This document shows positions 19,054-57,575 of a stretch of 64,000 bases of DNA, piece by piece. Made by a program: the position numbers and the translations under genes. Source of the stretch: Chloranthus sessilifolius (Eukaryota > Streptophyta > Magnoliopsida > Chloranthales > Chloranthaceae). The notes under the pieces are model-generated. The model made no database searches. It saw only the letters and a list, made by a program, of their open reading frames with translations, and had not been told where the DNA came from. Each line of letters begins with the position of its first letter. Within the stretch, counting starts at the first letter, position 1. The DNA is taken from positions 144,167,317 to 144,231,316 of the forward strand of contig CM037584.1 in the NCBI GenBank assembly GCA_021018995.1, in the 5' to 3' direction.

Positions 19054-19352
19054 GACATATGAACGGTAACCTCTGGATTTTACCCCAAAAATTATGATTG
19101 GGGTTGACTTGTTGACCACCTTGACCTTTGGGGTGTGTTTTGCTAGTGGGTGTGTTTTGCTAGTTCTGTTGCACCCATTCCCTACCTATTTGCAACTCTT
19201 CAAGTGGCTTAAAGCCTCACCCCATCATCCACCATTGGAGGACTTTCTCACACATTTCAAGGCTCCAAGAACCCTAGAAAACCTTAGATTTGAGATTACG
19301 TAATTACTAAACCCAATTAGCTTCTAAGTGATCTCCTAATCCACCCATTTCC

Positions 19353-19360
19353 TATAAATA
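19353..19360 (+). promoter_or_regulatory. TATA box, element I 5' LTR
   Basis: TATAAATAGAGACCCC. The same motif is in the 3' LTR at 33977-33984. Transcription would start a few dozen bases downstream. Confidence 0.7.
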
Positions 19361-20080
19361 GAGACCCCTACCCCTTGGTTTAGGGGTTGAGAAATTTGCT
19401 TAAGAGAGAAAGAGCTCAAAGTGAGAAGTTCTTCCTCCCTTTTGTGCACCATTTTCACCCAAATTCCAGAATCTCCCAACCTTATTTCAAGCTTGTTCTT
19501 GCATCCAAAACCCTTAGCCTAGGTGTGTGTGATTCCCTAGCCTCCCTTCCCTACCTCTTAGCTTCAAGCCTTAGGAGTTAGAACCCCATTTTTCACCATG
19601 CAAGGCCTTCAAAAGCTCATCAAAGCAAGCCACGCAAGGCTCTGCTACGGTGCTACAACGGCTCGAGGGCTCCAGCTCTCCCCTTTCTTCTCCTATATTT
19701 TTCTAGCTCCCTCCATCCTCCCATTTGTGCCGTTACGGCACCGACTTTTCGGTAGGAACGGAGGGGCACAAATAGGATTCTAACCCCTTTTGGGCAAGAG
19801 GAAGCTATTTTCCCTTCTTTTACTTCATTTTATTTTTGGCCATAAGTAGAGACCACGTTAAGCGGGTTGATCGGGTGCCTAACACCTTCCCGATCAATAA
19901 CCGAAGCCCCTACCCAAGAGCCGGTGTAGATCGGATTAAGAGTCATATTTTTAGCACTTCGGTGATCATAAAAATGAACTAAGTTTCCCGGGATACCGAA
20001 AGCTCCGGGTGGCGACTCTATAGTTTTTGCTAGTGAGCGCATCGCCGCGACAGGATCGTCAAGAATCTTACGGTTGCATA

Positions 20081-20105
20081 GATGACAACTTTTCTGGGGA
20101 TAGCT
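20081..20105 (+). other. Primer-binding-site region, element I (degenerate)
   Basis: GATGACAACTTTTCTGGGGA sits where element II has GATGGCGACCCTGCTGGGGA. The Ogre-type site (TGGCGACTCTGCTGGGGA class, tRNA-Arg in described Ogre elements) is recognisable but mutated here. Confidence 0.6.
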
Positions 20106-21554: not shown

Positions 21555-24500
21555 ATGTCGTGGGAAGGGGACCCAACTTACGCCGATCCCGACTCATCCC
21601 CGCCACATTCTCCAACCCACTCCCATTCGGGAGAAGTTTTTTCCACCATCCCCCTCATCCAATCACCCTTTGCCGTTACCGGCCCGTTTGGCGCCCCCAT
21701 TTTCCCAACCACTACCTCCCAAAATATTCAAAGTCCAACCCCCCATTCTCCATCTTTTGCCCAAACCATACCCATGCCAAATCCAACCCATTTCCCATCC
21801 ACATCCATACAAAACCCAAACCCATCCTCCCAATCCACATCCATGCCCCATTTCCCATCTTCCCCCTATAGGCTTGATCCACCCACATTCACATACACCA
21901 CTTCCTCCCTATCCAACCCCCCACAAATTCCCCCATCTACTTGGGTCATGCCCATTTTTATCGGGGCCATGCCCGATTTTTTCCAAGCATCCACCCCTAG
22001 CATCCCTAATCCTTCCACATCCTTTGCCTCACTTCAACTCTCCAATCCAACCCCATACCCTACCTCTTACCATGGCCATGCCCAATCATACCAGGGCCAT
22101 GCCTAATTTTCCCTCCATCCCATCTCCACCACCCACATCCAATCCTCCCTCCATGACCATGATGGAGGAGATGTTCCAAGCCTACTCCATGTGGAAGGCT
22201 TCTCAAAACACCCCCCGTCCTCCACACCCCATATCCCTAAACCCATCTCACACCCTAGACAATCTCCATGCCTCACTCCCCAATGACCCATCAACCCCCC
22301 ATAATCCACACCATCCAAACCCCCATTACCCACATACCCCAAGGCCCCATGGCCCAGTGTCTCACTACCCATGCACCCCAAGGCCAAATGGCTCAATCTC
22401 CAACCTCTCGCATACCCCAAGGCCCATTGGCCCATACCCCTCAATCTAGTGGGCCAGGCCCACATACCCCAAGGGCCCATTGCCCAAACCCTTACCCAAG
22501 GGCCCATGGCCCAAACCCATCTAGGGCCAATGGCCCAAACCCATTTGGGCCAAGCCCAAACCCTCCAAGGGCCCATGGCCCATACCCACCAATGGCCCAT
22601 GGCCCATACCCCTCAAAACCTAGTAGGCCAGGCCCACATACCCCAAGGGCCCATAGCCCAGACCCATTTGGCCCAGGCCCATACCCACCAATGGCCCATG
22701 GCCCAAGCCCTCCAAAGCCCAATGGGCCATACCCATCAAGGCCTAATAGGCCAAGATCTCCCAAATCCCATGCCCTTTACCCAAACCCAACCTGATCAAG
22801 GCCTTGTGGCCCAAACCTACCTCGGGCCCATAGCCCAAGTCCCATACTTATACCCTCCACAATACCCCCAAAATTTCACCCACCCCCATCCTTCACAACT
22901 GGGTCAAACCCATGTCATACCTCAAACCCAATTTTCTAATGGCCCCATACCCAAAGACCATTCACAAACCTTCTCTCATGTCCAATGGCCTCATCAGGCC
23001 CCACCCCTAAACTAAACTACCACTCACCCCATCACCCCACAACACTTCCCTTACACCCAAGGGGCTCACCCAACCCACATCCAATCCAATCCCATCCAGT
23101 CCATACATCAACATGAAAATCTCGTCCTCACTGCACCCTATGTAGACCAGCAGTGTGAGGAGGACGAGATCAGAAACAGTGGGACCTATGCTGGGGCAGT
23201 GACCAATGTCAATCCTCCACCTGTAATTATCCCACCCCTGGCAGCCCAAAGTGAGTCCAGGCTAATAATTGAGAAGACGGCCCCCATGTCCAAGGAGTCG
23301 GAACAACTGAAAGAACAGTTGGATAAAATCCAGAAGCAATTACAGAAGATGGGTGGTGCTGAAATCCATGCCACAGACTTCACGGATTTATGCCTGTTCG
23401 CCGAGGTCCCCCTGCCCCCCAAATTTAAAATACTAGTATTCGACAAGTACAATGGCATGAGCAACCTGATTGCACACCTCAAGTCTTATTGTGGGGACAT
23501 GTGCCAGTACGGGGGGGACGAGAGACTGCTAATAAAAGTCTTTCAGAAGAGTTTGACCGATCCAACCCTGAGGTGGTTCACATCTCTTGAACCATCCATG
23601 ATGAAGACATGAAAGGATTTGACGCATTTATTCCAGGAACAGTATGTCTACAATACTGATATTGAACTGCACAAGTCTGATTTGGCCCGTTTGAAACAGA
23701 ATCCTAATGAGACCTTCGGCGACTATTTAGGGCATTTGAGAGCACTGGCAGCTCAAGTCAAAAATAGAATACCAGACGATGAGCAGATGGAGATGATTTT
23801 AAAGAATACTCTGCCAGTGATTTCTGATTTTCTTGTATACCAGCAGCAGTCTAGTTTTATTGACTTGGTAAAGAACGCCAACCACTGTGAGGACGCCATC
23901 AGAGAAGGGTGACTCAATAAGAATGCATCCGGGGGGCCCAACGGGATTAGGAGGTTCTCCGAGCAGAAAAATGATAGAAGAACAGGGGCAAAGGTACAGA
24001 ATGTTGCAAACACTTGGCCCAACAATAACAATGTAGCCCCCTTCCAGTTTAAAGCAGTGCAACCAGCTCCCGTCAGGACAAGGCCAGTACAAAGAGCAGG
24101 GAATGGGCAGGGGACACAAATGACCCCAGAGAGGAGAGCCCATTATGATCGAGTCTTTATGCCCTTGGGACAATCCTTGAGTGTACTTTTACCTTTATTA
24201 ATTGAAAAGGGATTAGTAACTGCGCTCCAACCACGACCTCCTCCCAATCCGATTCCATATAATTTTGACCCTAATACACATTGCAATTTCCATCAGGGTC
24301 CGGGTCACCCAACTGATCGCTGCTTCCCATTGAAGCACGTGATCTAAGACTTAATCGATGCTGGGAAGATCATTCCCCCTGCACCCACCCAAGCAAACTA
24401 GTATGCGAATATCCATCAGGTGCCTTTACCACCACATCCTACCAGAATAGTAGGTCCCAGACCCACCATAGGGATGGTAGAGGAAATTGAAGAAGAGTAT

Positions 24501-25200
24501 GAATTTGACCCCTCTGATTATATCAATAACAAAGAAAATTTTATGATCCCAAGGCAGCAAGACCGAGAAGAAAGAATCGTTGGGGCGATTGAACCCCAAA
24601 ATCTGGCGGATTACTTTCCGACTCCTACACCACAAGCCGAACCCCTAGATCTTAGGGCCTATTTTCCACTATCCACTCCCATAAATTATGTACAAATAAA
24701 TGCGTATCAACCATACTCCACCAACCCCTTGAATTACCCAATAAGCCATCCGACTCCTAATTCTCCACCTGCACCCATCAATTACCAGTGGCCTACAACC
24801 CGTTATCCCCATTTCAACCACCCACAAAATCTACCACCCCTGTCAATTCCCTAGTGGCCCATCAAACCCCCAATCCTCCGCCCGCACCCATCAACTGCCA
24901 GTGGCCTACGCCCACCCCACTACCCTCGGTGCAACAATCGTTAAACTTCACCACCCCTACCTGGTCCAATTTTGCCACCCACCCATCCATCACTAAGGTA
25001 AGCCAGGTCTTACCTATCCTCCCAGAGCCACCAGTACATACACTTCAGGTGCCAGCAACCATACCATTCTAGCTCTCAGGACCAACCTATGATCCACATC
25101 AGGTCCCGCTGAGCTATGAGCAAACTAATGCTAACGCCGGCAGTAGCAGCAGGGAGGGGCCAGTAGACTTCGTTACCAGATCGGAAAGAATCTCGAAACA
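21555..25200 (+). pseudogene. gag: Element I gag
   Basis: Structural Gag protein that would package the retrotransposon RNA. The frame starts at ATG 21555 (MSWEGDPTYADPDSSPPHS...). It has a long Pro/His/Gln-rich N-terminal half with GPMAQTHQ-type repeats (22380-22780). A short coiled-coil-like segment follows (SEQLKEQLDKIQKQLQKMGG), then the Ty3 gag core (IAHLKSYCGDMCQYGGDERL, TLRWFTSLEPS, LTHLFQEQYVYNTD, LKQNPNETFGDYLGHLRALA). Later come a basic stretch and HCNFHQGPGHPTDRCFPLKH, a zinc-knuckle-like C-x3-H-x5-H-x3-C cluster. Stops at 23610, 23910, 24345 and 24402 and a frameshift near 24790 break it. Element II's copy keeps Trp at the 23610 position. Confidence 0.85.
22330..22790 (+). repeat. 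In-frame 24-bp minisatellite in gag (GPMAQTHQ repeats)
   Basis: Repeated 'ggcccatggcccataccca' units keep the codon frame and encode about fifteen 8-residue repeats such as GPMAQTHL. Element II has the same type of repeat at 53860-54090. Confidence 0.85.
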
Positions 25201-25297
25201 ACCAGAGGCAACAACAACAGCAATTGCAACAGCAACAACACCAGCACCAACACGGCCAGAGGGGAAGAAGGACAGTGCAGTCCACCCGTTTGAGAAG

Positions 25298-26068
25298 ATG
25301 AGTCGGGAGCACATTCTCGAGACTCAATTAAGAAGAATGCCAGCTCATATCACTGTCTGGGATCTTTTTATGACGTCCCCACTCCATTTTCAAGCTCTAA
25401 CGGGGGCGTTAAAGAATGCCCATGTGTCCCAACAGGTGAGCCCAGACGAGGTTGGGCAAATAATCGTACAGGTGATGGCACCCAATGCCATTTCATTTTC
25501 GAATGCGGATCTATCGGAGGAGGGAAACAGTCATGCTAAATCCCTCAACATTACTGTCGAATTTGGGAACATGATAATTCCCTTAGTTCAAATTGATAAT
25601 GGGTCGGCTCTGAATGTGTGCCCGTTGAGGACTGCCACCAAGATCGGCGTGGACCCCTGTATGCTAAGGCCAACAAGGACTAGCGCTCGGGGATTTGATA
25701 ATACAAGAAGAGAAATAATTGGAGAGGTCAATCTGGAATTAGTAATTGGGCCCATGACCTTCTCTATACCTTTTCAAGTGATGGATATCAAATCTTCTTT
25801 TAATTTATTGATAGGACGCCCGTGGTTACATTAGGTCGGAGCGATACCTTCTACCCTCCATCAAAAGCTAAAATTCATATCCGGGCAGAAGGTGATCACC
25901 ATCATTGGTGAAGGGCACGATGAGAAAGACAAGGCCACTCACAACATTGAAAATCCTAAAGTAATGGATGTGCCACATACTGAGGAAGATAGCGACCTCC
26001 ACAGTTTCGAGTACGAGGTATCAGCAGTAGGCCCAGAACCCGTGAGAAACATTACTTCTACAACCGGC
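25298..26068 (+). pseudogene. Element I aspartic protease
   Basis: Retropepsin-like protease that would cut the Gag-Pol polyprotein. The N-terminal lead-in is MSREHILETQLRRM and LMTSPLHFQALTGALKNAHV-like sequence (FMTSPLHFQALTGAL). The active-site region is VQIDNGSALNVCPLRTATKI, where D-N-G-S takes the place of the usual D-T/S-G and the Asp is kept. The flap and second-strand motif is SFNLLIGRPWLH. A stop follows at 25832 (TAG) just after the domain, and the frame then continues to about 26070. Element II's copy at 50830-51624 has Glu in place of the Asp. Confidence 0.8.
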
Positions 26069-26845
26069 GGCTGAATGGAAGCAGTAGTGGTCATGCCCTA
26101 GAAATGGGGCTATCATAAAGGCAAAGGGCTTGGGCCTAGATTACAGGGCAGAAGGGAGTCAGTTATTGCCAAGGGACAGAAAATAAGATTTGGGCTAGGT
26201 TACAAGCCCACAGAGAAAGAGGTTTGAGAGGCTAAAGAGAAAGAGGTATGAAAGACTAAAGAGAAAGCCAGGGTCGCTGCAGCCGTAAGAGCTCGAGGAA
26301 TCAACATAGAAGAGAAACCTCGCCCTAGGCCGCACATCAGGGAATCCTTTGTCAGCACTGTGGTCGTAAAGATCGATCGACATGGGATAACCCATTTGAC
26401 CCCACACAAACCCACAGCCCCAATGCATCCCTCCAATCCCCAGATCTCCCTTCCCAGCCTAGAAATAGATTTGGCTGCGTTGTCCCTCTTCGAGGAATGA
26501 CGACCAGTACCTAAACAAACACCCCCTGTGGTAAATCACCACAAAATGGTATTGACGTTTGAGGACATCACCTTAGACGAATTGGGGATCAATATGATGG
26601 AGGCTGACTCCAATAAGCCATATCAGTCAGCACCCTCCATCTCAACAGGTAAAGGAGCGGCCCCTCAGGTACGCAATTGGGCATCTTTGTCCCAAACCCT
26701 GGAAGCAGGGAGTGGCCTAAAGTTTGGCACCTATTTTATAAAAAAAACAACCATAAAATGTGAGATAAGCCCTTGGCAGGTAATACCTTGTATATATAGT
26801 AACCCGCCTTGCCAAGGGTCCGTCTCCGAAGGAAACAAAAATTGA
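26069..26845 (+). pseudogene. Element I linker with G-patch-like motif
   Basis: The same frame, with several stops, reads KWGYHKGKGLGPRLQGRR then RFGLGYKPTEKEV. This resembles a G-patch (GYxxGxGLG), a nucleic-acid-binding motif found after protease in some retroviral and LTR elements. A charged region follows (KEKARVAAAVRARGINIEEK) and then MVLTFEDITLDELG. Element II keeps the motif (KWGYQKGKGLGPQLQERR, minus strand, near 50760-50830), which argues that it is a real part of the polyprotein. Confidence 0.6.
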
Positions 26846-26935
26846 AAAAACATGGAAAAAATATAAAATCCTAAAAACATTGAAAAAATTGAAAGTTTTA
26901 AAAAATCGTCATTTAAAATTTCAGAAAAAGTCCCA
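26846..26935 (+). other. A-rich non-coding spacer between protease and RT
   Basis: An A-rich spacer with stops in the polyprotein frame separates the G-patch region from the RT. Ogre elements are known to carry an intron at this point. I see AG|GTAATA at 26776 and TTTCAG at 26924, but the phases do not agree, so I do not define a splice pair. Element III inserted into the corresponding place of element II. Confidence 0.4.
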
Positions 26936-28435
26936 CAAAATGATGCCTTAACCGAAATACCCGTCCTACGTAAAATCGACCCCTTTCCTGTAGAAATACA
27001 AGAGGTAGGAGTTACGAGTCTGGATGAGGATAGTCCTTCAGAGGAGCTCCCCAATGAGCTCCTTGACCGGTTTGCCGACTTTGAGCATGGCCCTACCCCC
27101 GTTGTCAAAGAGACAGAGGATATCAATCTAGGGACTGAGGAGATTCCCAGAATAATCAAGATTGAAACGTCACAGTCTCTCGAAGAAAGAAAAAGCAAGA
27201 TTGAATTCCTTCGGTCATACCAAGACATTTTTGCCTGGTCTTACGAGGACATGCCTGGTCTGGACACTATTTTGGTTGAGCATGAGTTGCCTCTCTACCC
27301 TGATATGAAGTCGGTTAAGCAAAAGCTGAGACGTCTCTGACCCGAGTGGATGTTGAAAGTCAAAGATGAGGTTATCAAGCAGTATGATGCAGGGTTTCTC
27401 ATGGTATCCAAATACCCACAGTGGCTAGCCAATATCGTGCCTGTACCGAAGAAAGATGGAAAGGTCCGCATGTGTATCGATTTTCAAAATTTGAACAAGG
27501 CGAGCCCGAAGGACGATTTCCCACTGCCACACATCGACATCTTGGTCGATAACACTCCTAAGCACAGGATGCTTTCCTTCATGGATGGATTCTTAGGATA
27601 CAATCAGATAAAGATGGCAGAGGCCAATCGGGAGAAGACAATGTTCTTTACCCCCTGGGGAACCTTTTGCTATCGAGTCATGCCATTTGGGCTAAAGAAT
27701 GTTGGTGCAACATACCAAAGAGCTATGACTGCACTGTTTCACGACATGATGCATCGAGAAATTGAAGTATATGTCGATGATATGATAGCCAAGTCACCGG
27801 AGGGAAGCGATCACTTGGTAAACCTTCAGAAGCTGTTTGAGAGGTTGAGAAAGTACAGGTTATGTTTGAATCCACAAAAGTGCACTTTTGGTGCTATGTC
27901 CAAAAAATTGTTAAGATTCATCGTAAGCAGGAGAGGAATCGAGGTCGACCCAGTCAAGGTTAAAGCCATCACAGAAATGCTACCACCGTCTATTGAGAAG
28001 GAAGTTAGAGGGTTCTTGGGCAGAATGCAATATATCAGTCAGTTCATTGCACAGCTAACTCCAATCTGCACACCGATCTTCAAACTACTAAGGAAGAACT
28101 CGTCCGTTGAATGGAACGACGACTGTCAGGTAGCATTCGATAAAATTAAAGGCTACCTCCTTAACCCACCTGTGTTGGTAGCACCCGAACCAAGGAGACC
28201 ACTCTTGATGTATCTTTCCACGACAGAGGTTTCGATGGGATGTGACTTAGGTCAGCATGATGAGACAAGAAGAAAAGAGCAGGCCATCTACTATCTGAGC
28301 GAGAAATTTATTGATTATGAGACACGCTATTCTCATATGGAGAAAGCATGCCTAGCTCTTGTATGGGCTCTAAGAGGCTCTGCCATTACTTGTTATCCCA
28401 AGCCATTCTACTCTTGGCCCGCATGGATCCGTTGA
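26936..28435 (+). pseudogene. Element I reverse transcriptase and gypsy-type RNase H
   Basis: The lead-in is SYQDIFAWSYEDMPGLD. The RT follows with WLANIVPVPKKDGKVRMCID, the FPLPHID block, MPFGLKNVGATYQRAM and the catalytic EVYVDDMIAKS at about 27765. The thumb is followed by the Ty3-type RNase H with LLMYLSTTEVSMGCDLGQHD, EQAIYYLSEKF and RYSHMEKACLALVWAL. It copies RNA into DNA and removes the template RNA. Defects seen are a TGA at 27338 (probable CGA) and a frameshift near 28370 that cuts off the RNase H end. The YVDD core is intact, unlike element II (HVDD). Confidence 0.9.
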
Positions 28436-29151
28436 AATACCTGTTCGAGAAACCAGCTCTCATTGGACAAACCGCATGCTAACATCTCTTATTCTCTGAG
28501 TTCGACATCACGTACATCACTCAGAAGTCAATTAAGGGGCAGGCACTCACCGATCATCTTGCTGACAATCCTTTGCTAGATTATGAGCCTTTGGGAACCA
28601 AGTTCCCTGATGAGGACATTTTGTTCATGACGGAAGATGATACTGAGGAAGCAGAGGAATCATGGGTAATGCACTTTGACGGGGCCGCAAATGCTGAAGG
28701 TCAGGGAGTTGGTGCCATTCTGATTTCGCCAAAAGGATCCCATGTACCGGTCTCTATTAAGCTCAATTTCCCTTGCACAAACATAGCTGAGTACGATGCT
28801 TGTGCCGCTGGTCTGTAGGAGGCTCTTGATCTAAATATAACTCACCTCCGAGTGTTTGGCGATTTACGATTAATCATATGCCAGACAAACGGTGACTGGA
28901 AGACGAAAGATGAGAAATTGATCCCTTACCATGAGCACCTCGAGGACCTGATAGCTTGCTTCCAAGATGTGACATTCTCATATGTCCCCCGGATAAGGAA
29001 TCGCTTTGCTAATGCACTAGCAACTTTGGCGTCAATGATAGAAATCCCATACGGTGCTGAGATAAAGCCGATCATGATCGAACAGAGGAATGAGCCGGCC
29101 TTCTACCTCCAGATTGAGGAACCTATGAAGCCTAATGATGAGCAACCTTAG
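28436..29151 (+). pseudogene. Element I second RNase H (archaeal type)
   Basis: After a connector (KGQALTDHLADNPLLDYEPL) comes WVMHFDGAANAEGQGVGAIL, with the first catalytic Asp in FDGA. Then come NIAEYDACAAGL, LRVFGDLRLIICQ and HEHLEDLIACFQDV, and then FANALATLASM. A second, archaeal-type RNase H behind the normal one is a hallmark of Tat-lineage plant Ty3 elements. A TAG at 28816 stands where element II has Gln (GLQAAL), a C-to-T stop. Confidence 0.85.
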
Positions 29152-30400
29152 TTCTCAGATATCAAGAATTTCCTCGAGACCCTAACTTTCCCTGAGGGTA
29201 CATCCAAGACGGACCGACGAACCATTCAATGTCTAGCGGCAGACTATGTCATTTGCGGGGAATGTCTTTACAAGCGGTCCTACAATAACATCTTACTCAG
29301 GTGCCTTACTGAAAGTGAAGCGATCAATATTATGAAGGAGATCCACGAGGGAGTATGCAGGGCCCACATCAGCGGTCACATGGTTGCTAAGAAAATTCTG
29401 TGGTAGGGATACTTTTAGACTACTATGGAATCGGATTACTGCAAACATGTTCTGAAATGCTACAAGTATCAGGAACACTCCAGCTTGATACACGCTCCTG
29501 CCATCGATCTTCACTGCATGACCACTCCCTGGGCAAATCCATACTTGGGTCATTGATGTCGTTGGAATGATTAGCCCAAAAGCATCAAACGGGCATCAGT
29601 TCATCCTTGTCGCTATTGAATAATTTACCAAGTGGGTAGAAGTAGCATCATACGCCAACATCACGACCAGTTACATTGAGAAATTCCTCAAGAATAAAAT
29701 TGTGTGCCAATTTGGAGTACCCAAGGACATCATCACAGACAACGACACAAACTTTGTGAATAAGTGCATCTGTGCCTTCTGCGAGCAATACAAAATCAAG
29801 CACTGTTGCTCGTCACCTTATCGGCCTCAAACTAATGGAGCCATAGAAGCTGTAAACAATACAGTCGTTTTCATCCTAGAGAAAATGGTCGTCACCTACC
29901 GAGATTGGAGCGAGATGCTATCATTTACTTTGTGGGCCTACAGAACGTCGATCCGTACCGCTACAGGGGCAATACCATTCTCCCTTGGGTATGGAACTGA
30001 GGCCGTCCTACTAGTACAGGTTGAAGTACCCTCACTTCAAACCTCATAGAATCAGGCTTACCAGAAGTGGAGAGAGAAAGATCATGCTTTGAACAGTTGA
30101 ACTTATTGGACAAGAAGAGACTCCTAGCCTTGTGTTATACTCAAGTTTACCTGGGGCGAATCGCACGCGCTTATAATAAACATGTCCGCGGTCGAGATCT
30201 AAAGGTAGGAGACACTGTGTTGAAGATCTTCCCATCCCTCCATGCCGATCCGAGAGGCAAGTTCAAGCCAAACTGGGAAGGACCTTATGTCATTTGAGAA
30301 GTAATTCTAGGATACGCCATCCGCCTCGCCACCATGGACGAAGATCATCTTCCTGAGCCCATCAATGGTGGATACGTCTGACGGTTTTACTCTTAGTCTA
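29152..30400 (+). pseudogene. Element I integrase with GPY/F tail
   Basis: The integrase would insert the element DNA into the genome. It has an N-terminal region (RRTIQCLAADYVICGECLYK, LLRCLTESEA, HEGVCRAHISGHMVAKKILW), a zinc-binding part with CKHVLKCYKYQEHSS, and a core with GVPKDIITDNDTNF (second Asp). Core sequence continues with YRPQTNGAIEAVNNT (catalytic Glu) and LWAYRTSIRTATGAIPFSL. The C-terminal domain carries VGDTVLKIFPSLHADPRGKF followed by NWEGPYVI, the GPY/F motif. Frameshifts near 29525 and 30050 and stops at 29406, 29418 and 30296 break it. Confidence 0.88.
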
Positions 30401-33170
30401 CCGCGATACGGTAAATATTAGTGAAACAAATACGTGATTGCCTAAGAACCACCCAAAAGAGGCCATCATCCCAAACATAGTAGCCAAAAAACATCCCTAA
30501 AAATGATGATATCCTTTGCTACCCCATTTGAGCCTGGGCCTTTCTTTCAATAACCCCCTTCCCAAAAAAAAAAATGTGTGTGTACATATACAAAAAAGGG
30601 AAGTAAAGTTACTATCAAAATCTTAAAAAAATTGAAAAAGCAGAACCTCAAAAAAAAGATTGCCTGAAATGGAACAAAAAGAAGAAAAAAATGTAGAAAA
30701 ATCATGGGGCATGTACAGTGAAAACCTCCAAGGAAGAAAGTAAATTGAGAAAATTGAAGCCACATCAAGGAAACCCTTTTTACCGAGCATACCTTCAAAT
30801 CCTAACCTAACCCATGGCCAAGCTACACCCTGAAAAAAGCCCTCTTTTAGGTTTACAAGCAGTCATAATATCTGTTAAGTCAACACAAGCCAAGTTGTGG
30901 ATGACACCAGAACCCCATCTGGTCGGTTATGACGAAATCGACGTCTATATCGCGGCTTTAAAAAAAAAAGGAAAGAAATGAAAGAAAAAAAAAAAAATAC
31001 AAGCTCAAAGTAAGATGGACGTGGTGAAAACCCAAAAGGGCATTATGGGTAAAAATAGCAAGCTTGTGCGGGCCAGGTGAAAACACAAAAGGGCGCTTGG
31101 GGTAAGAGAACTAAACCCATGGACGTGGTGAAAACTCGAAAGTGCGCCACAGGTAAAAAAAAGTAGATAAATAAAAATAAAAAAAAAAGAAAAGAGAAAA
31201 GATTGAAAAAGAAAAATTTGGACTAATTGAGAAGATTGATGTTTGAGGAACCCTTTTATTACTCTTCCTGCACTCTCTTATCCGACTGGGCCGCTCATGC
31301 TAGTTCGAATCGGGTCCTGACCAGAATTGTCTTTGTAAAACCGCACTGTCAAACGCATAACCCGAGGCAAGGAGAAAGGTTTAACTCAATCCAAAGGGAT
31401 CAGCGTTTCGGCCTTGGTAAAATCCGGAAACTCACTCAGGTCCGACTGCATGAAAGAGTTCGACTATGCTCAAAATGGGACCCGTTACTCCATCTCACTG
31501 TCAAGGCATCAAAAAAAAAAAGAGAGAAAGCCAAAAACAAAAAATCAAGAAAAATACAAATACCAAAAAATATGCATATATTTTTACTCATATTTCTAGC
31601 AACATATTTCAATCTCAAAAATGAAGAAAAATAATAAAAAATCTCCGAAAACAAAAATCCAAAAAAATATATTGAAAATGAAAAAATATAGGTAGAAATC
31701 TACTTTTCCTTCTGTTGTTTAGGATGCATTTTCTTTATATGTATAAACAAAAAAGGGCTGACCTTTTCTCGAGAATATGCAGGAACATCACACGGTCCAA
31801 AGCCTCGAAGCGGGCAACTTCTCAGCGATGGACAAATCAGATGAAGCATCTCACCACTAACATCAGGTCTATTCAAAAAAAGAGAGAGAAAATCATTTTG
31901 AAAAAGAAAGAATAAATTTGTGCTTCCCCACAGAGCTACGCACATGCGAGTTCTGATGCGGTAAAATATCGATATTTTATCAGCAACACCACTGTGCTAT
32001 AGTAACATCTTAAGTCTAAGGCACGCCTTGGATTCTGGATCCTACTTCAAGGAAGGAGCAACGGTGTTAGTCCCGGTCAAACAGTCAATGTTTCGATCAA
32101 GTTGACTCCACTGCTAAATTTTTGTAATGAGTGCTCTGATTTGGATTCATATGAACTTAAGTGTCTTAAGCTTCAGATTCTCCATTGGAAAAGATCAATC
32201 GTTGGTTGAGACCAACCTGTCGAGAATAAGATTACATATCAATTAAACTATGTGCAACCATACATTCCGAAGGGTTCATTTCCCTTTTATTTTCTACAGG
32301 CTTAAAACCTGTATGGGCAGCAGTATCCCTATAAAGTATACGCCATGCGTATGGGTATCCGTATGATGGTCGTTTGTCCCCGTAAATTATACTCGGGAGG
32401 GTCCGAGTCGAGGCTTCCATCGCCTTTATTGTTGCTTATTGCCCCTGATGAGTGTATGATTATACATAGTTAATTGATATTTATGATCATTGTCAACAGA
32501 GACCAGGATTGGATGTCCCTTCATGGAGATACCCTAATATTTGATTGGATCTGTTCAAGGTAGTCAAAGTTGGATGCTCTAGGCCATGTTAATCTAAGGC
32601 ATGCTTTCAAAAATGGCACGCACTCCCAAAAAGCGTTGACATCTATTCACTTCGCTCGAATAGTCATGCTAAATAAACTTCGGGGTCAATGGGTTCACCC
32701 AAAGACCTCGAACCCTGCTTTTAGCAGGGGCACCCGCGAACAGTCAGATGGGGCCATCAAATGCCTCATAGGATTGAACGCAAACTATAGAGCCTTGTGT
32801 AGGCTTACTTCACGCCTATCTTGGAATGTGAGTCGATCCCTCCCCTTTTACTCACGAAGCTGTTGCATTCAGAATAAATTTTAAACATCAGCTACCTTCA
32901 AAATCATCCCGAGAAGCGAATATCTTTTCTGACTATAAGGAGTTCGCAACTCATTCCACCTCGGTTATGCCCAGTAATGTTGCTAAGCGTTTGGGAACCG
33001 ATTACCTCGAGAAACGAATGTTTAGCCTGACGTCTCAGGGCTTTTGTTTTCTCACCGTGTTACTCATTTGATGTTTGAAGTTCGTTCGGAATGCAGTGGA
33101 CCCATCAGTAAGGCCTTGGGCCTCTTCGGATGTCTCTTTTTCTTTGGCATTCGATTATTAGTGATCGGAT
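30401..33170 (+). other. Element I 3' non-coding region
   Basis: No gene supported; frames are short and low-complexity. It contains A-rich tracts (30560-30680, 30955-31000, 31510-31690), a ~55-bp tandem repeat at 31015-31165, and a tail shared with element II (32570-33170). Element II has the antisense genes between the parts corresponding to about 31490 and 32570 here; element I lacks them. Confidence 0.7.
31015..31165 (+). repeat. ~55-bp tandem repeat in element I 3' region
   Basis: Three units of the form 'gacgtggtgaaaac-c-aaaagggcgc-ggggtaaa'. The reverse complement occurs four times in element II at 35600-35800, so the repeat is an old shared part of this family. Confidence 0.85.
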
Positions 33171-33186
33171 ACCAAAGAGGGGCATC
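33171..33186 (+). other. Polypurine tract of element I
   Basis: ACCAAAGAGGGGCATC directly abuts the 3' LTR start TGTAGACACC. It would prime plus-strand DNA synthesis. Confidence 0.85.
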
Positions 33187-34707
33187 TGTAGACACCCAAA
33201 TTTGGCCCAAGGCCCGATCAAAACACCTTTCGAGAGAGGTGCAATTATGAGCTTTTGATGACATGTATGGAACCTTTAGGAACTCCCTTAGAACCCTTAG
33301 GAACCTTTTCAAACCCATAGGAATCACCCTAGATCCCTTAGGAACCTGACCCGAACCTTTAGAAATCAATCCCCTACCTGAACCTTATCAAGCAAATGGT
33401 TGAGGAGGGGTGCACCAAAACTAGCTATTGCCCTTTACTATGATCAAGTCTCATATCATTGAAAAGTAGAGATCGTCAGCTTTCCAACGGTCTAAGAATC
33501 GCCTCAATCGGAGGAATACATCAAAAGATACGACAAATCGAGCCCGAAGGGCATAAGAGTAAAATCAAGTGGGCCCCCCTAGGAATTTGGCGCAACTAAT
33601 AGTTGCGCCAATATTAATTGTGGACCCCACCCTCGCGAGCTAACTTCCAGGCACTGTTTAAACACTGTTTTACTGTATATTTGTCTGGTGCCAAATATAT
33701 GAATAGTAACCTCTGGATTTTATTCCAAAAATCATGATTGGGGTTTGACTTGTTGACCACCTTGACCTTTGGAGTGTGTTTTGCTAGTTCTGTTGCACCC
33801 ATTCCCTACTTATTTGTAAACCTTCAAGTGGCTTAAAGCCTCACCCCATCGTCCACCATTGGAGGACTTTCTCATATATTTCAAGGCTCTAAGAACCCTC
33901 GAAAACCTTAGATTTGAGATTACCTAATTGCTAAACCCAATTAGCTCCTAAGTGATCTCCTAATCCACCCTTTTCCTATAAATAGAGACCCCCACCCCTT
34001 GGTTTAGGGGTTGAGAAATTTGCTTAAGAGAAAAAGAGCTCAAAGTGAGAAGTTCTTCCTTCCTTTTGTGCACTATTTTCACCCAAATTTTAGAATCTTC
34101 CAACCTTATTTCAAGCTTGTTCTTACATCCAAAACCCTTAGCCTAGGTGTGTGTGATCCCCTAACCTCCCTTCCCTACCTCTTAGCTTTAAGCCTTAGGA
34201 GTTAGAACCCCATTTCCCACCATACAAGGCTTTCAAAAGCTCATCAAAGCAAGCCACACAAGGCTCTCCTACAGTGCTACGAGGGCCCGAGGGATCCGGC
34301 TCTCCCCTTTCTTCTCCTATCTCTTTCTAGCTCCCTCTATCCTCCCATTTGTGCCATTACGCCGCCGACTTTTTGGTAGGAACGGAGGGGCACAAATAGG
34401 ATTCTAACCCCTTTTGGGCAAGAGAAAGCTATTTTCCTTTCTTTTGCTTCATTTTATATTTGGTCATAAGTAGAGACCGCGTTAAGCGGGTTGATCGAGT
34501 GCCTAACACCTTCCCGATCGATAACCGAAGCCCCTACCCAAGAGCCTTTGGTGTAGACCGGATTCAAAGTCATATTTTTTGCACTTTGGTGCTCATAGAA
34601 ATGAACTAGGTTTCTCGGGACACTGAAAGCTTTGTGTGGCGACTCTATATTTTTTGCTAGCGAGCGCATTGCCACGACGGGATCGTCATGAATCCCACGG
34701 TTGCACA
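33187..34707 (+). repeat. Element I 3' LTR
   Basis: TGTAGACACCCAAATTTGGC to CGGTTGCACA, 1,521 bp, colinear with the 5' LTR. It keeps one perfect palindrome (33588-33610), a TATA box at 33977-33984 and the terminal GTTGCACA. It lacks two palindromes and one copy of a 17-bp duplication found in the 5' LTR. Confidence 0.9.
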
Positions 34708-34765: not shown

Positions 34766-35280
34766 CATCACACCGATTATTTTTTGGGAGATGTGGTGTA
34801 AGCAAAGTACTGACTTATAAATGAAAAAGGGAAACCTATTATCTTACAAAAATCTTATCTTTTCTCTATTATTTTTTTTTTTTTTTGTAAAATGGGGGAA
34901 TTATGTCGATTATCCCCTTGGAGATGTGTCACACACAGTGTTGTCCTGAAATGGAAAAGGAAAATATATTATCTTTTGCAAAGGTGGTCTTTTAGGTCAT
35001 CAAACCAGTCATCCCGGAGTGGTAGGTGCACCGTGCTGGCCTGGAAATGCAAAGGAAAAATTTATTAGCTTTTGCAAATCTGGTCTTTCCGGTCATCAAA
35101 CCAATCATCCCGGAGTGGGGGGTGCACAGTGCTAGCCTGAAAATGGGAAAAGAAAATTTATTATCTTTTGCAAATGACCCTTTTTGGTCATCAAACCAAT
35201 CATATTAGAGTGGGGGGTGTACAGTGCTGGCCTGAAATTGGGAAAGAAAAATTTATTATCTTTTAGAAATGACTCTTTTT
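34766..35280. repeat. ~94-bp tandem repeat array in element II 3' region
   Basis: At least three clear units (starting about 35011, 35106 and 35200) share 'tcatcccggagtggggggtgcacagtgctggcctg' segments and 'tttattatcttttgcaaatg'. More diverged copies lie at 34780-35010. Tandem repeats after integrase are known in Tat/Ogre elements and can seed satellite DNA. Confidence 0.85.
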
Positions 35281-40019: not shown

Positions 40020-42166
40020 TGTTAAGTGATGAAAAATGCCACTTTTCATCCTATAACCTGACCATTGATAGACCTGTGAGCACACTAATAAGCTCTTGTC
40101 AAGTGCATTTTGTAAACAGTAATAAAAGAAGGTACTAATGCAGAAAATCACTCAAGACTACACAAAAAGGAGCTATCTCTCAGCACAGGACAAACCTAAC
40201 AACAACACACCAGAGGGTAGCACATCACTGGACCCTTGGAGTGCGTGGCTATAGCAGGGCAAGGAGAAGGAAGTGAAAATAGGCTGAGAACGTCCTATCT
40301 ATTGGTCACCTGAAGGCGTCGATAGAAGCTGAAAGCAAAGAAAAGAAGAATTCATGCAGTTGAAGAGGTCTTCGATAGGATCTGAAGGCAGAAGAAGGAT
40401 GAATTCGTGTGGATTAAGGAGTTTGATAGGATCTCAGAACCTATCGAGCAGCTGAAAAGGTAGAAGAAACCATCCTATCGAAAACCTGCCTGAAGAGTCA
40501 AAGGAATCTATTGAATGGTTTCTTGAACCTATCGAGATGAGAATGCTGGAACAGAACCTATCGAAGGGTGATTGAGCCTTTCGATAAGACTGAAAGAAAA
40601 CCTATCGAAATGGCAGAATGAAGAGCAGAACTTGTCGAAATAGTTTTCCAACCTGTCGAAGAGCTTTTTCAACCTGTCGAAATACTCCAAACCAAGGACT
40701 GAGAAGGCTGGAAGTCCAAGCGAAGATTCATCCTATCGAAACCTATTGAACAGATCTGAGAACCTAGCAAAAGGACCAAAATACTTGATTTCAACCTGTC
40801 GAAAGCTTCCTGAACCTGTCAAAATCGTGTGCAGAACTTATCAGAAATTCAGCTGAGCACACGTTATACTTCAGTGACTCGTTGCACGTAATTCGAGGCA
40901 CTTGGTGATCGACACGATGGTTTTAGAAGATGCCCTAGAAAGCCCTAACCTTCTCACGTTCTTTAATAGAATTCTAAAAAATTCTTACGACCTTCTAGAA
41001 GGGATTTTTGGCGGGAAAAATAGAGGAGAAAGCTATATATAGAGATCCCCAATTGCCATTGTGGGGAGATCGAGATCTGAGCCAAAATTCTAGAGATTAG
41101 CGCCTGCAGAGCAATTCCATTTCCCTCCTTTAGCCCAACCATGGTTGGCTAAATCCCTTAGAGTAGCGAGGAGCGAAGTTAGATCTGTAATTAGGTGAGG
41201 TTAAGAGTGCTAGTGTAGGTTCCTAGCTGCACAGACTACAGATCTGAGAGTATTTTCATTGTAAAGTGACCTTATTTGCAATGATAATACTGTTTTTAAT
41301 GCTTTAATTAGATTTAAATTTCCTTTGATTCCATTTGGTGATCGATCGGATTTGTGTAGAGGAGTTGTAGATCAGCTCACCCACTTAACTGGTAGACCTC
41401 TTGGATATCATCTGATCTCCCTGGATCTGATGCTCCTGTGATTCCTTGAGTCTGTGACCTGGGAATTGCAGTATCTGTAGTGGTTTTAATTGTTCTAATT
41501 GAGGCTCTGGCTTTATAGGAGATCTCTAAGATGGTCTGTGACCATTAAAGTGGACAGATCATAACCTTAAGGTAAATCTAAGCTCATGCCTCAATTGGAT
41601 TCATCTGCTGCAATCCATGGATTCGATAAAGTCTATAGGATGGTCTGTGACCATTAAAGTGGATAGATCATAGCCTTAAGACCAGGTGGATCCTGTGATT
41701 TGGAGTGGAATTTATACCCTGCAGTTGTGCTTATAGCCAACGAGGGAATTGTGTGCTCTGAACCTTTGTAGCATGATTAATTGAACCTGATTTCAGTGAA
41801 AACCAACCTCGAAGCTACTCTTCTCTATTTTCTGCATTTTTACTCTCTTCCCCTGCAAGATCTAAGCTCCCAAACTCGATCCAAGATAGCTTATGTTTAA
41901 ATTGTAGCTTAGTTTAAGTGACAACTCATTCCAAACCTCTCCCCTGTCTTTTAACTGAATTAGTAATAGCTAGGGTGCCAGATCTGACACAGATATGGAG
42001 ATTGGTCGTATTTCTAAACAACCTCCCTGTGGAAATTCCCTTGCTCACCATTCTTTTAAAGCTTGCTGCAACAGATCCTGAATACTTGCAGGTCTGTATG
42101 AGTGTGTCTGTCTAGTTTTATTGCTGATTTTAGACCCTCATTTGAGGGAAGGCAAACACGCCAACA
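40020..42166 (+). repeat. Element III 5' LTR
   Basis: TGTTAAGTGATG to CACGCCAACA, 2,147 bp, closely matching 48050-50180. A TATA-like AGCTATATATAGAGATC lies at 41031. Many CCTATCGAA / CCTGTCGAA motifs crowd 40290-40860. The LTR repeats a 'gatggtctgtgaccattaaagtgga-agatcat' segment at 41529 and 41639. Confidence 0.9.
40290..40860. repeat. CCTATCGAA / TTCGATAGG motif cluster (5' LTR)
   Basis: About twenty dispersed copies of (C/T)CTATCGA or CCTGTCGA. They recur in the 3' LTR (48320-48870) and in the internal region (45360-45700). Confidence 0.85.
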
Positions 42167-42601: not shown

Positions 42602-43357
42602 ATGGGTGAGCAATAGCAGCCGAGAACCCTTAAGGAGTTTAATGCACCAGGGATTTACAATTCCCCCTTCTGCATTCAATTCCCAGCTGGTTAAGGAAAC
42701 TATGAGATAAAATCATCCATCATTCAAATGCTCCCCTCATTTCATGGCCTGACCAAAGAAGACCTATATAAACACATTGATGAATTCTTAGGACTGTGTA
42801 CTACATTTAATATCACAGGTTTGGGGGAGGAGGCCACCAAGATGAGACACTTTCCTTTTTCATTAAAGGATAAAGCCAGGACCTGGTTGTCCCTGCTTCC
42901 ACCTAACAGTATTTAGTCCTGGAGTGATCTCCAATGTCAGTTTCTGGCCAAATTCTTTCCTATGTCAAAGACTAGCCAGTTGAGAAAGGGTATCATCTCT
43001 TTTACCCAAGATCCAACTGAAGACTTTCATCAATCCTGGGAGAGATTCAAGGAACTCCTCAAGAAATGTCCCCACCATCAAATCCCTGAATGGCAATTGA
43101 TTCAAAGCTTTTATCAGGGAATTGATGCTAAAAATAGAGATATGATAGAAGCCTCCTGTGGTGGCACCTATCTCCATAAAACTGCTGAGGAAGCATGGGA
43201 GCTCTTTGACATCATCAGTGAGAACTCTATGCAAAGGGAAACCTTAGCAAGAGATCTAGAGCCTCCTAAATTGATGAAAGAGAACATCTCAAGGGGAAAG
43301 ATATATGAAGTGAGTGTGCTAAGTGAGTTGGAAAGGATAGTGAAACCTGAAATTTGA
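42602..43357 (+). pseudogene. gag: Element III gag, N-terminal and core
   Basis: The frame starts at ATG 42602 (MGEQ...RTLKEFNAPGIYN). The Ty3/Athila gag core follows: IIQMLPSFHGLTKEDLYKHI, EEATKMRHFPFSLKDKARTW, LRKGIISFTQDPTEDFHQSW, ERFKELLKKCPHHQIPEW and SFYQGIDAKNRDMIEASCGG. Gag forms the particle that packages the RNA. Stops at 42614, 42692 and 42915 (the last followed by SWSDLQCQF) and a frameshift near 43357 interrupt it. Confidence 0.85.
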
Positions 43358-48049: not shown

Positions 48050-50180
48050 TGTTAAGTGGTGAAAAATGCCACTTTTCACCCTATAACCTGACCATTGATA
48101 GACCTGTGAGCACACTAATAAGCTCTTGTCAAGTACATTTTATAAACAGTAATAAAAGAAGGTACTAATGCAGAAAACCACTCAAGACTACCCAAAAAGG
48201 AGCTATCTCTCAGCACAGGACAAACCTAGCAACAGCACACCAGAGGGTAGCACATCATTGGACCATTGGAGCTCATGGCTACAGCAGGGCAAGGAGAAGG
48301 AAGTGAAAATAGGCTGAGAACGTCCTATCGATTGGTCACCTGAAGGCGTCGATTGGAGCTGAAAGTAAAGAAAAGAAGAATTTGTGCAGTTGAAGAGGTC
48401 TTCGATAGGATCTAAAGGCAGAAGAAGGTTGAATTTGTGTGGATTAAGGAGTTAGATAGGATCTCAGAACCTATCGAGCAGCTGAAAAGGAAGAAGAAAC
48501 CATCCTATCGAAAACCTGCCTGAAGAGTCAAAGGAACCTATCGAATGGTTTCTTGAACCTATCGAGATGAGAATGCTGGAACAGAACCTATCGAAGGGTG
48601 ATTAAGCCTTTCAATAAAACTGAAAGCAAACCTATCGAAATGGCAGAATGAAGAGCAGAACCTGTCGAAATGGTTTTCCAACCTGTCGAAGAGCTTTTTC
48701 AACCTGTCGAAATACTCCAAACCAACGACTGAGAAGGCTGGAACTCCAAGCGAAGATTCATCATATCAAAACCTATCGAACGGATCTGAGAACCTAGCGA
48801 AAGGACCAAAATACTTGATTTCAACTTGTCGAAAGCTTCCTGAACCTGTCGAAATCGTGTGCAGAACTTCTCAGAAATTTAGCTGAGCACATGTTGTACT
48901 TCAGTGACTCGCTGCACGCAATCCGAGGCACTTGGTGACTGACACGATGATTCCAGAAGATGCCCTAGAAAGCCCTAACCGACCCACGTGCTTTAACAAT
49001 ATTCTAACAAACTCTAACGACCTTCTAGAAGGGATTTTTGACATGAAAAATAGAGGAGAAAGCTATATATAGAGATCCCCAATTGCCATTGGGGCGAGAT
49101 CGAGATCTGAGCCAAAATTTTGGAGATTAGCGCCTGCAGAGTAATTCCATTTCCCTCCTTTAGCCCAACCATGGTTGGCTAAATCCCTTGGAGTAGTGAG
49201 GAGCGAAGTTAGATCTATAATTAGGTGAGGTTAAGAGTGCTACTGTAGGTTCCTAGCTGCACAGACTACAGATCTGAGAGTATTTCCATTGTAAAGTGAC
49301 CTTGTTTGTAATGATAATGCTGTTTTTAATGCTTTAATTAGATTTAAATTTCCTTTGGTTCCATTTGGTGATCGATCGAATTTGTGTAGAGGAGTTGTAA
49401 ATCAGCTCACCCACTTAACTGGTAGACCTCTTGGATACCATCTGATCTCCCTGGATCTGATGCTCCTGTGACTTCTTGAGTCTGTGACCTTGGAATTACA
49501 GCATCTATAGTGGTTTTAATTATTCTAATTGAGGCTCTAGCTTTGTAGGAGATCTCTAGGATGGTCTGTGACCATTAAAGTGGATAGATCATAACCTTAA
49601 GGTAAATCTAAGATCAGGCCTCAATTAGATTCATCTGCTGCAATCCATGGATTCGATAAAGTCTATAGGATGGTCTGTGACCATTAAAATGGACAGATCA
49701 TAGCCTTAAGGCCAGGTGGATCCCGTGATTTGGAGTGGAATCCCTGTAGCTGTGCTTATAACCAGCGAGAGAATTGTGTGTTCTGAACCTCTGTAGCATG
49801 ATTAATTGAACCTGATTTCAGTGAAAACCAACCTCCAAGCTACTCTTCTCCATTTTATGCATTTTTACTCTCTTCCCCTGCAAGATCTAAGCTCCCAAAC
49901 TCGATCCAAAATAGCTTATGTTTAAATTGTAGCTTAGTTTGAGTGACAACTCATTCCAAACCTCTCCCCTGTCTTTTAATTGAATTAATAATAGCTAGGG
50001 TGCCAGATCTAGAGATTTGTCATATTTCTAAACAAGCTCCCTGTGGACATTCCCTTACTCACCATTCTTTTAAAGCTTACTACAACAAATCCTGAATAAT
50101 TGCAGGTTTGCATGAGTGTGTCTGCCTAGTTTTATTGTTGATTTTAGACCCTTATTTGAGGGAAGGCAAACACGCCAACA
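48050..50180 (+). repeat. Element III 3' LTR
   Basis: TGTTAAGTGGTG to CACGCCAACA, 2,131 bp, colinear with the 5' LTR with scattered, mostly transition, differences. The TATA-like site is at 49061. Confidence 0.9.
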
Positions 50181-54975: not shown

Positions 54976-56336
54976 TGTGTTGGCATCATAAGGTTTTTTT
55001 TTTCCTTTTTTAGTTTTTGTTTTTTTGGTGGTGACACCTTTTTTAATTTATTATTTTTGAAAATGGCAAGTAAATACCCTTCGATGAAGAATTTCGAGGC
55101 CTTGGAATTCCCATTTCGGGAGGTGTTTGTACCCTAAATGTCCCCTGCGGCGGGATCCTGACATACTTTGGAAGAATCGAAGGGAAACCCTTTGATCTAT
55201 TGAAGGCACGAGAATCAACGCAAACAACCCGATCCCCTAGAGCGAATCAATAAGGAGTTACCCTCTTTTGACCGGCAGGGGTGTGTTGGGTGTTGAAGGG
55301 TGCGGGATTTATCCGGGGTGCTAAACCACTAAGCGGGGAACTTGGGGAGGTGAAGATTGGCCTCAGATTCGGGCTGCCTAACCTAGGACAAACTTGGTGC
55401 GTGCATTACATGCACCAGGCCAAATTCTGGAGAATTTGGCTTGGCATGTGTATTATACACGCCAGGCTAATTCTCTTCAACTTTGGCTTGACGTGTGTAA
55501 TGTACATGCCAGAGCAATTCTGGGTAGAAATGGCTTGGCGTAAATTTTACACACGCCAGGCAAAAACATAATATATACTATAGTGACAGCAGAATAACAA
55601 GCCCGAAATTGGTCTTTTTTTTGTGATTTTCTGGAAGCGATGCTTCATGTGACTGACTTCTCATTATAATGGGTCCCTCCTCCTCGATCCTAGGGATAGA
55701 AGGTTTGATTCGGGGCAACTAAACGCACTCCCCTAGGGTTTTAAGCTTTGTAATCGGCTTGGTCACCCACCCGATATACCTCCAGCGCAAGCGCCTTTTT
55801 AGATATTGGATAGGGTGGTTCTTTTCGGGATCAGCACCACTAGGGGCTGCCACCGTACTAAGAACCGGGACATTTGTATCTTTTCCAAAATTCCCACCCT
55901 TTTGTAAAATCTACCCAACGTAAAAATTCAATTAAGTCCTCCTCTTGGTTCAATTTTAATTTTAATTTTAAGGGAGTTTGCTTAATGTCCAAAATTGGAG
56001 ATGATGGTCCCGTGCCGCCTCTACGGGCTGGCGTCCACTATTAGGATATGATTGCGAAAAGTAAAAGCTCACATAGGCCCACCAAATGGCTAAGGCATGT
56101 AAATGGGTAAGTAGGCCTGCCAATCTGCTAAGGCTTATAAATGACAGGAAAGTAAAGGAAAGTAAAAACGATGCACAAGTAGGCCGGCCAATCGACTAAG
56201 GCATGTACACGATGGAAAAGTGGGGGTGAGTAAAAATAAACAGAATCGTAGGGGTGAGTAAATCCAAGGAAAAAATAGCCAAGTGTTAGTTAAATAAAGG
56301 AAAAGGACAACTTTCAAGGGGAAGCTCTACTACCTG
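54976..56336 (-). other. Element II leader
   Basis: No gene. It mirrors the element I leader: 'gcctgccaatctgctaaggc' repeats (56040-56200), an A/T-rich part (55920-55980), and a palindrome tetrad at 55395-55560. Confidence 0.7.
55395..55560. repeat. Palindrome tetrad of element II leader
   Basis: Four units begin at 55395, 55442, 55489 and 55536, exactly 47 bp apart. Arms are of the TGGCGTGTGT type. The array lies about 420 bp upstream of the gag start region in transcription direction. Confidence 0.9.
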
Positions 56337-56354: not shown

Positions 56355-57359
56355 TCTGTGCAACTGCGGATTTTTGAGGATCCTATCGCGACGATGCGCA
56401 CTCGTGAAAAATTTAGAGTTGCCACCCAGAGCTTTTAGTGTCCCAGGAAACCTAAATCAATTTTACAAGCACCAAAGTGTTAAAAATGTGACTCTTATTC
56501 ACCGGTCTACGCCAAAGGCTCTTAGGTAGGGGGTTCGGTTATCGATCGGGAAGGTGTTAGGCACCCGATCAACCCGCTCAAAAGTGGTCTCTACTTATGG
56601 CCAAAATAAAAAAGAAACAAAAATAAAAGAACACTTCCTCTTACCCAAAGGCACTTGGATCCTATTTGCGCTCCTCTGTAATTACCGAGATTTCGACGGC
56701 ATAATGGCACAATTTAAGGATAAAGGAAAAGCCGAGAAGGTAGAAGAGTAGAGGGGAGAGCCGGAGCTCTCGGGCCCTTGTAGCACAGCTGTGGACCTTT
56801 GCGTAGGTGCACTTGACGAGCTTCCGATAGCTTGAGTGGTTGAAGAACAGGTTCTAACCTCTAAGGCTTGATATCTAAGGGGAAGAGGAAGAAAGCTAAA
56901 GGGGTAGTTCTCTCCTAAGCTCAAGGGTTTTGATGGAGGATAAGGTTTCTAAGGTGGTTTAGAATTCTGAAATTTGTATGGGTATTTGGTGCATCAAAGG
57001 GGAGTAGGGGATTGCTTAATCTCTTTCTCTCTCTTGGAAAAACTTCAAGCCATTTGCAAGGGGGTGCCTCTCTATTTATAGAAAAAGAGAGGATTAGGGG
57101 GGTTCTTAAAGGCTAATTAGGATTAGCAATTAGGTAATCCTAACATCTAAGGTTTCCTAGGATTTTAGGGTCATGGATATGTGTGAGGATAGGATCAATG
57201 GTAGATGATAGGGTGAGGTTTCAAATGATTAGAGGGTTACAAATAGGGTAAATAGGGGGTGCAACAGTCCTAATGAAACCCACCCTAAATATTAGGGTGG
57301 TCAACAAGTCAAACCCTAAAAGTAAAATTTGAGTAAAAACCAAAGGTTATGTTGCTAAG

Positions 57360-57510
57360 CTTGGCGTGTGTAATAGACACGCCAAGCATAGCTACAGTGT
57401 CCTGGAAGTCAGAGCCGTAGGGGGGCCCACTTATACTTGGTGTGTGTAATAGACACGCCAAGCCATTTATGGGAAAAAAATGGCTTGGCATGTGTAATAT
57501 ACACGCCATG
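57360..57510. repeat. Three GGCGTGTGT palindromes in element II 5' LTR
   Basis: Units at 57360, 57436 and 57484, matching the trio in the 3' LTR. The third is better preserved here than at 11140. Confidence 0.9.
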
Positions 57511-57575
57511 CATGGCTTTGCTACGTGGTCACTTTTCGGATCGCTGTAAATTTTAAAGTACAACTCGGATTGAGG

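Follow-up and report, generated by a model that had tools for sequence, protein, structure and literature searches.

Host elements and palindromic arrays of the window

The window is the whole stretch of DNA analysed here, i.e. 64,000 nucleotides of the 2.17-Gb genome of Chloranthus sessilifolius, and this genome is the scope of the genome-wide counts given below. It contains three elements bounded by long terminal repeats (Table 1). Elements I and II are 66-75% identical when aligned across LTR, leader, gag and pol. A domain search placed the second RNase H (aRH, RVT_3) of element I between RT/RNase H and the integrase, which is the arrangement of the Tat clade and is described for Ogre and Retand in the available portion of PMC6317226. 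This Ty3/gypsy Tat-type order of pol suggests that the hosts of the arrays described below belong to the Ogre/Tat lineage.

Table 1. Features of the 64,000-nucleotide window, with positions counted from its first letter
Feature	Position	Strand	Details
Element I	18468-34705	+	LTRs 18468-20078 and 33184-34705; sits inside element II
Element II	7352-60411	-	LTRs 60411-56353 and 11527-7352; both LTRs and the body broken by other insertions
Third element			Between LTRs 40020-42166 and 48050-50180; one weak unit candidate at 41701
Element I, RVT_1 and RT_RNaseH	27341-28432
Element I, RVT_3	28819-29148
Element I, rve	29624-30046
Element I, 5' LTR units	18896-19053	+	18896, 18933, 19031; upstream of the TATA-like box
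Element I, TATA-like box	19353-19362	+	CTATAAATAG, conserved
Element I, leader array	20898-21063	+	Units 20898, 20946, 20993; fourth unit, worn, at 21041
Element I, 3' LTR unit	33588-33610	+	Perfect, CAACT type
Element II, 5' LTR units	57362-57508	-	57362, 57438, 57486
Element II, leader array	55395-55558	-	Units 55395, 55442, 55489, 55536
Element II, clean TGTGT tetrad	16537-16702	-	16537, 16585, 16633, 16680; precedes the antisense ORF closely
Element II, broken antisense ORF	16844-17457	+	Candidate ATG near 16863
Element II, units near 3' LTR	12424-12493	-	12424, 12471
Element II, 3' LTR units	11017-11115	-	11017, 11093
69-bp tandem repeat	20222-20386		In the leader of element I; holds GCCTTAGCCGATTGGCGGGCCTACTT-like blocks, which are present in the leader of element II too
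95-96 bp tandem repeat	34934-35280		3.5 copies, directly downstream of the 3' LTR of element I
snoR71 match	42978-43083	-	C/D-box snoRNA, 40.7 bits (cut-off 40); within the third element
Subtilase piece	2159-2872	+	fn3_6 domain; named relatives SBT3.18; matches include angiosperm proteins, among others; outside the elements

The leaders of elements I and II each carry four 23-bp dyads at a step of 47-48 bp. A first-pass annotation of this DNA had reported these two arrays, and its positions were confirmed for all units of II and the first three of I. Its fourth unit of I (21040) is present, but is best placed one nucleotide further and is a poor palindrome; it lies below both the motif/pairing filter and the score threshold of the 142-unit set used below, and is visible in leader comparisons. 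Further units had gone unreported at that stage: both elements carry some in their LTRs, and element II has two more close to its 3' LTR and a tetrad just upstream of an ORF antisense to it. The unit was thus found in four kinds of place: (i) the LTR, (ii) the leader, (iii) upstream of the antisense ORF and (iv) near the 3' LTR.

The outer motif TGGCG-N13-CGCCA, allowing two mismatches at most, occurs 36 times in the window, versus a mean of 10 and a maximum of 17 in 100 shuffles. Combined with a pairing filter, it returned 26 candidates (3-13 in 20 block shuffles), 22 of which were assigned to the unit family by reading. A 189-aa open frame (16498-17067, minus strand) was rejected as a gene: it spans the tetrad, and no Pfam domain was matched. 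No Rfam model covers the arrays at the gathering score, the sole match in the window being snoR71, and exact palindromes of the TGTGT and CAACT types had no matches in viral contigs.

Unit anatomy and inner types

The anatomy of the unit was read from 142 units in 48 arrays. This set retains three doubtful entries (L069 at 140, L070 at 134 and the first row of L019), and stands without the rows of L051, L066 and L067, the fourth leader unit of element I of the window and 29 genome leaders. Pairing and core conservation lean upwards in it, because the score used to find units includes pairing and core letters, and the cells of the counts are not independent, since the copies are related. GGCG, TA-W-TA and CGCC are the letters seen most often. 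The loop AAT, initially taken as the consensus, is right for 75 units, while 62 have ATT, i.e. the centre is strand-symmetric. The GTATTAC centre of some units, e.g. CATGTATTACATG, resembles the VANC21 motif YAGTATTAY quoted in the accessible text of PMC5735166, possibly by chance.

The inner five letters are of three family types: CAACT-like (comprising CAACT, CAAGT, CATGT and CATCT), TGTGT (element II) and TATAT. The last, GGCG-TATAT-AWT-ATATA-CGCC, was seen in one family (leaders L062, L063, L069 and L070, and LTR stretches L071-L074). The inner pairing CAACT/AGTTG originally given for element I holds for leader units 2 and 3, whereas the left halves of unit 1 (CAAGT) and unit 4 (CATGT) both face AGTTG. 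As for TGTGT/ACACA, this consensus fits the tetrad upstream of the antisense ORF better than the leader array of II from which it was derived; the leader units are worn, with 6-8 Watson-Crick pairs of 10 each, and the fourth, in sense order, does not have TGTGT at all, but reads CATGT/CGTGC. This CATGT unit and one CAACT/TGTGT hybrid in L018 are exceptions at the level of single units.

When the leaders of I and II are compared, 34 of 40 letters agree in the outer core and 13 of 16 in the TA-W-TA centre, versus 8 of 32 inner letters, and the linkers agree at 0.22-0.44. The earlier suggestion of selection on the stem-loop instead of the primary sequence is not supported, as core and centre are conserved as sequence.

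Occurrence, unit number and spacing in the genome

The exact outer motif TGGCG-N13-CGCCA is present at 20,577 places in the genome, versus 113 for the reversed control, although part of these places are not such palindromes and several of those listed represent a different repeat. All 14 stretches taken around listed units with an A-W-T centre match element I or II and carry units.

The first-pass annotation had stressed that the leader arrays have exactly four units. Four slots are indeed found in 30/30 leaders nearest to that of element I (the best 30 of 40 scored, from 6911 candidates; the window copy plus 29 genome leaders), but other leaders have fewer. There are three leader units in L011, L012 and L017. 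Among 20 leaders drawn with an anchor that contains no unit (picked by hand among some 100 listed places, out of 1257), one unit or more is present in 18, and seven have four; in the other two, L066 and L067, unrelated sequence takes the place of the array. A constant number of four was consequently rejected. As for spacing, steps of 47-48 bp make up 47/55 in leaders, 5/5 at putative antisense promoters and 3/3 near the 3' LTR, whereas LTR steps differ more among themselves, with values of 37-38, 47-48, 76-77 and 97-101 bp besides a few further ones.

LTR placement and the antisense ORF

A TATA-like box was recognized in 16 of 18 LTR segments, with the units 293-487 bp upstream of it. Families that are approximately 70% identical have units at corresponding LTR places.

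The antisense ORF of element II, in two pieces and with stops, is 43-63% identical to an ORF of L009. Both L009 and L019 have longer open antisense ORFs, with units just upstream of the ORF or at its 5' end, and in II and L019 a distance of about 160 bp separates the end of the array from the candidate antisense ATG downstream of it. Compared with the Pfam profile of the plant mobile domain (cut-off 34.9 bits), the ORF of L009 scored 17.1 bits (profile positions 17-123), the two pieces of L019 14.1 (12-123) and 23.4 bits (129-191), and the piece from the window 12.8 bits, all below the cut-off. The matches fall at consecutive profile positions, and the antisense ORF has a weak, sub-threshold resemblance to this domain, which is reported in 57% of Ogre elements in the part of PMC6317226 at hand. 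The ORF pieces of L009 and L019 have no homologue in the protein collection at E 0.001, and that of L009 matches nothing among solved structures at E 1.

Only about 2 kb separate pol from the 3' LTR in element I (31200-33183). No antisense-ORF match was found at E 0.001 in this element or in the 3' ends of L006 and L016.

Concerted change of inner types

We consider it probable, from the placement and letters of the units, that the arrays are palindromic cis-regulatory DNA dyads for a dimeric protein, whose inner preference would have drifted by family. A protein-binding site was one of several options listed in the first-pass annotation, and is the one that we favour; the RNA options of that list are unsupported. 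Were all arrays of an element read by a single factor, LTR and leader should acquire a new inner type together. With the inner class defined by the first two inner letters and the majority of the array, LTR and leader are of the same class in all 11 elements typed at both places: CA in six (I, L005, L010, L011, L012 and L017), TG in II and TATAT in four. The TATAT elements were known by their leader arrays only; LTR arrays were predicted about 1.8 kb upstream, and each of the four 461-bp stretches taken there holds TATAT-like units. By our own arithmetic, which ignores kinship, random matching of classes in 11 elements would give this result once in 2310. Arrays of putative antisense promoters agree in inner class as well, in 3/3 cases (II, L009, and L019 with L017/L018). 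Conversion, i.e. homogenization among arrays, could alternatively have caused such co-switching. Points against the DNA-dyad reading are the stable RNA folds of the arrays, the equal decay of units and their surroundings in family I (both described below), the sub-threshold Pfam matches of the antisense ORF, and the fact that no clear TATA box was seen for this ORF.

The binding protein might be a plant factor, with the element supplying sites only. LTRs commonly use host factors, and arrays are kept in element I, L006 and L016 even though element I and the 3' ends of the other two have no antisense-ORF match. Three inner types within one genome are hard to explain by one fixed specificity, but paralogous factors or a relaxed recognition of YR steps could give rise to them. 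We regard this version of the DNA-dyad reading as possible, and hold it tentatively.

Linkers and the 47-48 bp monomer

The linkers of II-type arrays (LTR, leader, antisense-promoter and 3' arrays) have best matches of 0.64-0.88, versus 0.33 (95% level 0.48) for shuffled ones, the former being the best of several comparisons and the latter the level of single comparisons. Since their linkers are alike, these arrays descend from one 47-48 bp monomer. The II-type likeness is lost in the leader linkers of I, with best values of 0.50-0.52. Linkers also resemble a second inverted repeat (agccattt...aaatggct), e.g. in the LTRs of L017 and L009 and at 57340-57530 of the window. From this appearance of the linkers, the whole 47-bp monomer may once have been palindromic.

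A shared monomer and a variable number of units are what a neutral tandem repeat would also produce, i.e. a functionless palindromic monomer spread by slippage and template switching and homogenized by conversion. No constraint is seen within family I either, where units (0.93-0.95), linkers (0.94-0.96) and flanks (0.92-0.95) have closely similar identities; such equal decay means that no constraint is visible after insertion, which is expected of dead copies but counts against any functional reading. However, between the leaders of I and II the core and centre persist while the linkers are near-random, the 47-48 bp step is kept in the great majority of leader steps, and the same LTR place is occupied in families as distant as those mentioned above. 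A neutral origin of the arrays is therefore improbable.

Pairing and the question of RNA

The claim that both arms of the unit change together is correct between families, as the three inner types show, but fails within family I, where no compensation is seen. Mutual information reaches 0.25-0.38 for pairs 6-9, versus 95% shuffle levels of 0.04-0.08, and 0.01-0.08 for pairs 2-5, with pairs 2 and 3 barely exceeding the shuffle level. Pair 1 owes its high value (0.42) to the TATAT family, in which these two positions read A..C and do not pair, and pair 10 varies too little for a reading of covariation. Left halves in the 30 leaders of family I are CAAGT in 19/30 for unit 1 and CATGT in 27/30 for unit 4, with AGTTG on the right; the rarer left halves of unit 1, i.e. 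CATGT (2), CATCT (1) and CACGT (1), have no matching change in the right half in these 30 leaders. The first LTR slot has halves that differ by copy: CAACT/CAACT, CAAGT/CAAGT, CAGGT/CAGGT and TATCT/CATCT. Half-sites act as blocks. Homologues with random copy number and spacing, or a lack of covariation beyond that due to gene conversion, had been named at the outset among the grounds for giving up the stem-loop hypothesis; copy number does vary and no compensation is seen in family I, yet covariation between families exists, where homogenization among arrays may have played a part.

The joint change of arms between families would also suit hairpins of the genomic RNA that serve packaging, dimerization or translation control. 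Every place occupied by units is present in the genomic RNA as well, and the arrays fold far more stably than shuffles (z -5.0, -6.1 and -14.4). The best folds, however, join units to each other instead of forming four discrete hairpins. Non-Watson-Crick pairs on the sense strand of the 142 units comprise 63 G-U and 66 A-C, a test weakened by the decay of copies after insertion, so that neither the G-U excess nor the discrete hairpins of a conserved RNA stem-loop are observed. With G-U pairs no commoner than A-C mismatches, mismatched hybrids (units 1 and 4) conserved in family I, AAT and ATT loops interchanged, an outermost A..C in the TATAT family, and LTR units located upstream of the TATA-like box and others upstream of an antisense ORF, the RNA roles put forward in the first-pass annotation are improbable.

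Relation to known systems

The initial impression that no element of such a layout had been described needs correction, for the arrays have a relative in the palindromic repeated motifs of Sireviruses. According to the sections of PMC2829016 to which we had access, the LTRs of these elements contain, upstream of the TATA box, repeated motifs that are palindromic; more of these motifs lie upstream of an ENV-like gene, and no function is known for them. Family-specific palindromes in multiple copies upstream of the TATA box of the LTR, and further copies upstream of an extra gene, are features common to both. In contrast to the Sireviruses, which are Ty1/copia elements, the hosts described here are of the Ty3/gypsy Tat type. 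The Sirevirus motif, as given in the same sections, is mostly 10-20 bp long with a CGG-CCG core, and its extra copies precede a gene in the same sense; here, the unit has 23 bp and the core GGCG-TAWTA-CGCC, the ORF is antisense, and there is also a leader array and the 47-48 bp step.

Another parallel is provided by the targets of VANC proteins in VANDAL transposons. These are tandem non-coding motifs that are bound by an element-encoded protein, vary from one related element to the next and evolve apart in step (PMC5735166, in the text available). The arrays described here likewise differ between related elements and change together. VANDAL, however, is a DNA transposon, its motif YAGTATTAY is not this dyad, and binding was demonstrated there (same source), whereas here it is inferred.

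With regard to the antisense ORF, extra ORFs (plant mobile domain, Transposase_28) lie between pol and the 3' LTR in Ogre and Retand, as they do here (PMC6317226 and PMC11963269, consulted in part). The portion of PMC11963269 seen reports antisense ORFs and proposes a regulatory role in the case of Retand, while that of PMC6317226 calls the function of the Ogre extra ORFs speculative; neither portion describes palindromic arrays upstream of the extra ORF and in the LTR.

The 23-bp unit itself was not found described among the matches listed from the open-licence literature of PubMed Central, searched by words and by motif letters. Reiterated protein-binding sites in the untranslated leader are a feature of the Drosophila elements gypsy (Su(Hw) sites) and copia. 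The leader arrays resemble these reiterated sites, which belong to other lineages and other host proteins.

Palindromic LTR motifs are already known as a kind, in another superfamily (Sireviruses, from the parts of PMC2829016 cited above). Within the literature searched, the new features are the occurrence in the Tat/Ogre lineage, a dyad of 23 bp that forms part of a 47-48 bp monomer, the presence of an array in the leader, the position ahead of an antisense ORF and the joint switching of inner types.

Proposed role of the arrays

According to the DNA-dyad reading, a single monomer of 47-48 bp, built around a 23-bp dyad, would have been copied to the LTR, the leader, the upstream region of the antisense gene and the vicinity of the 3' LTR. 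A putative dimeric DNA-binding protein would recognize half-sites GGCG-YR-W-N-T-A around a central A/T pair, and would control transcription from the LTR promoter and from a predicted antisense promoter. The inner half-site preference would have drifted by family, so that the arrays of one family switched together. Candidates for the binder are a host factor and the element's own antisense protein; an element-encoded binder would best explain the co-switching, and the antisense protein is the boldest candidate.

By analogy with VANC, we further speculate that a plant-mobile-domain-like antisense protein might bind family-specific operators in the LTR promoter, the leader and its own promoter, acting as the retrotransposon counterpart of VANC. 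Protein and operators would co-evolve, each family controlling or de-silencing only itself and its non-autonomous relatives. This extended model is rather unlikely as it stands. If the antisense protein matters, copies similar to element I would depend on their relatives.

No function has been established for the extra ORFs of the largest plant retrotransposons, and a family-specific dyad, placed in the LTR and directly before such an ORF, represents a concrete candidate target, which makes the question of their function testable by a binding assay. With its three inner types, this single genome also offers a case of a presumed regulatory site that has changed jointly at distinct places of an element.
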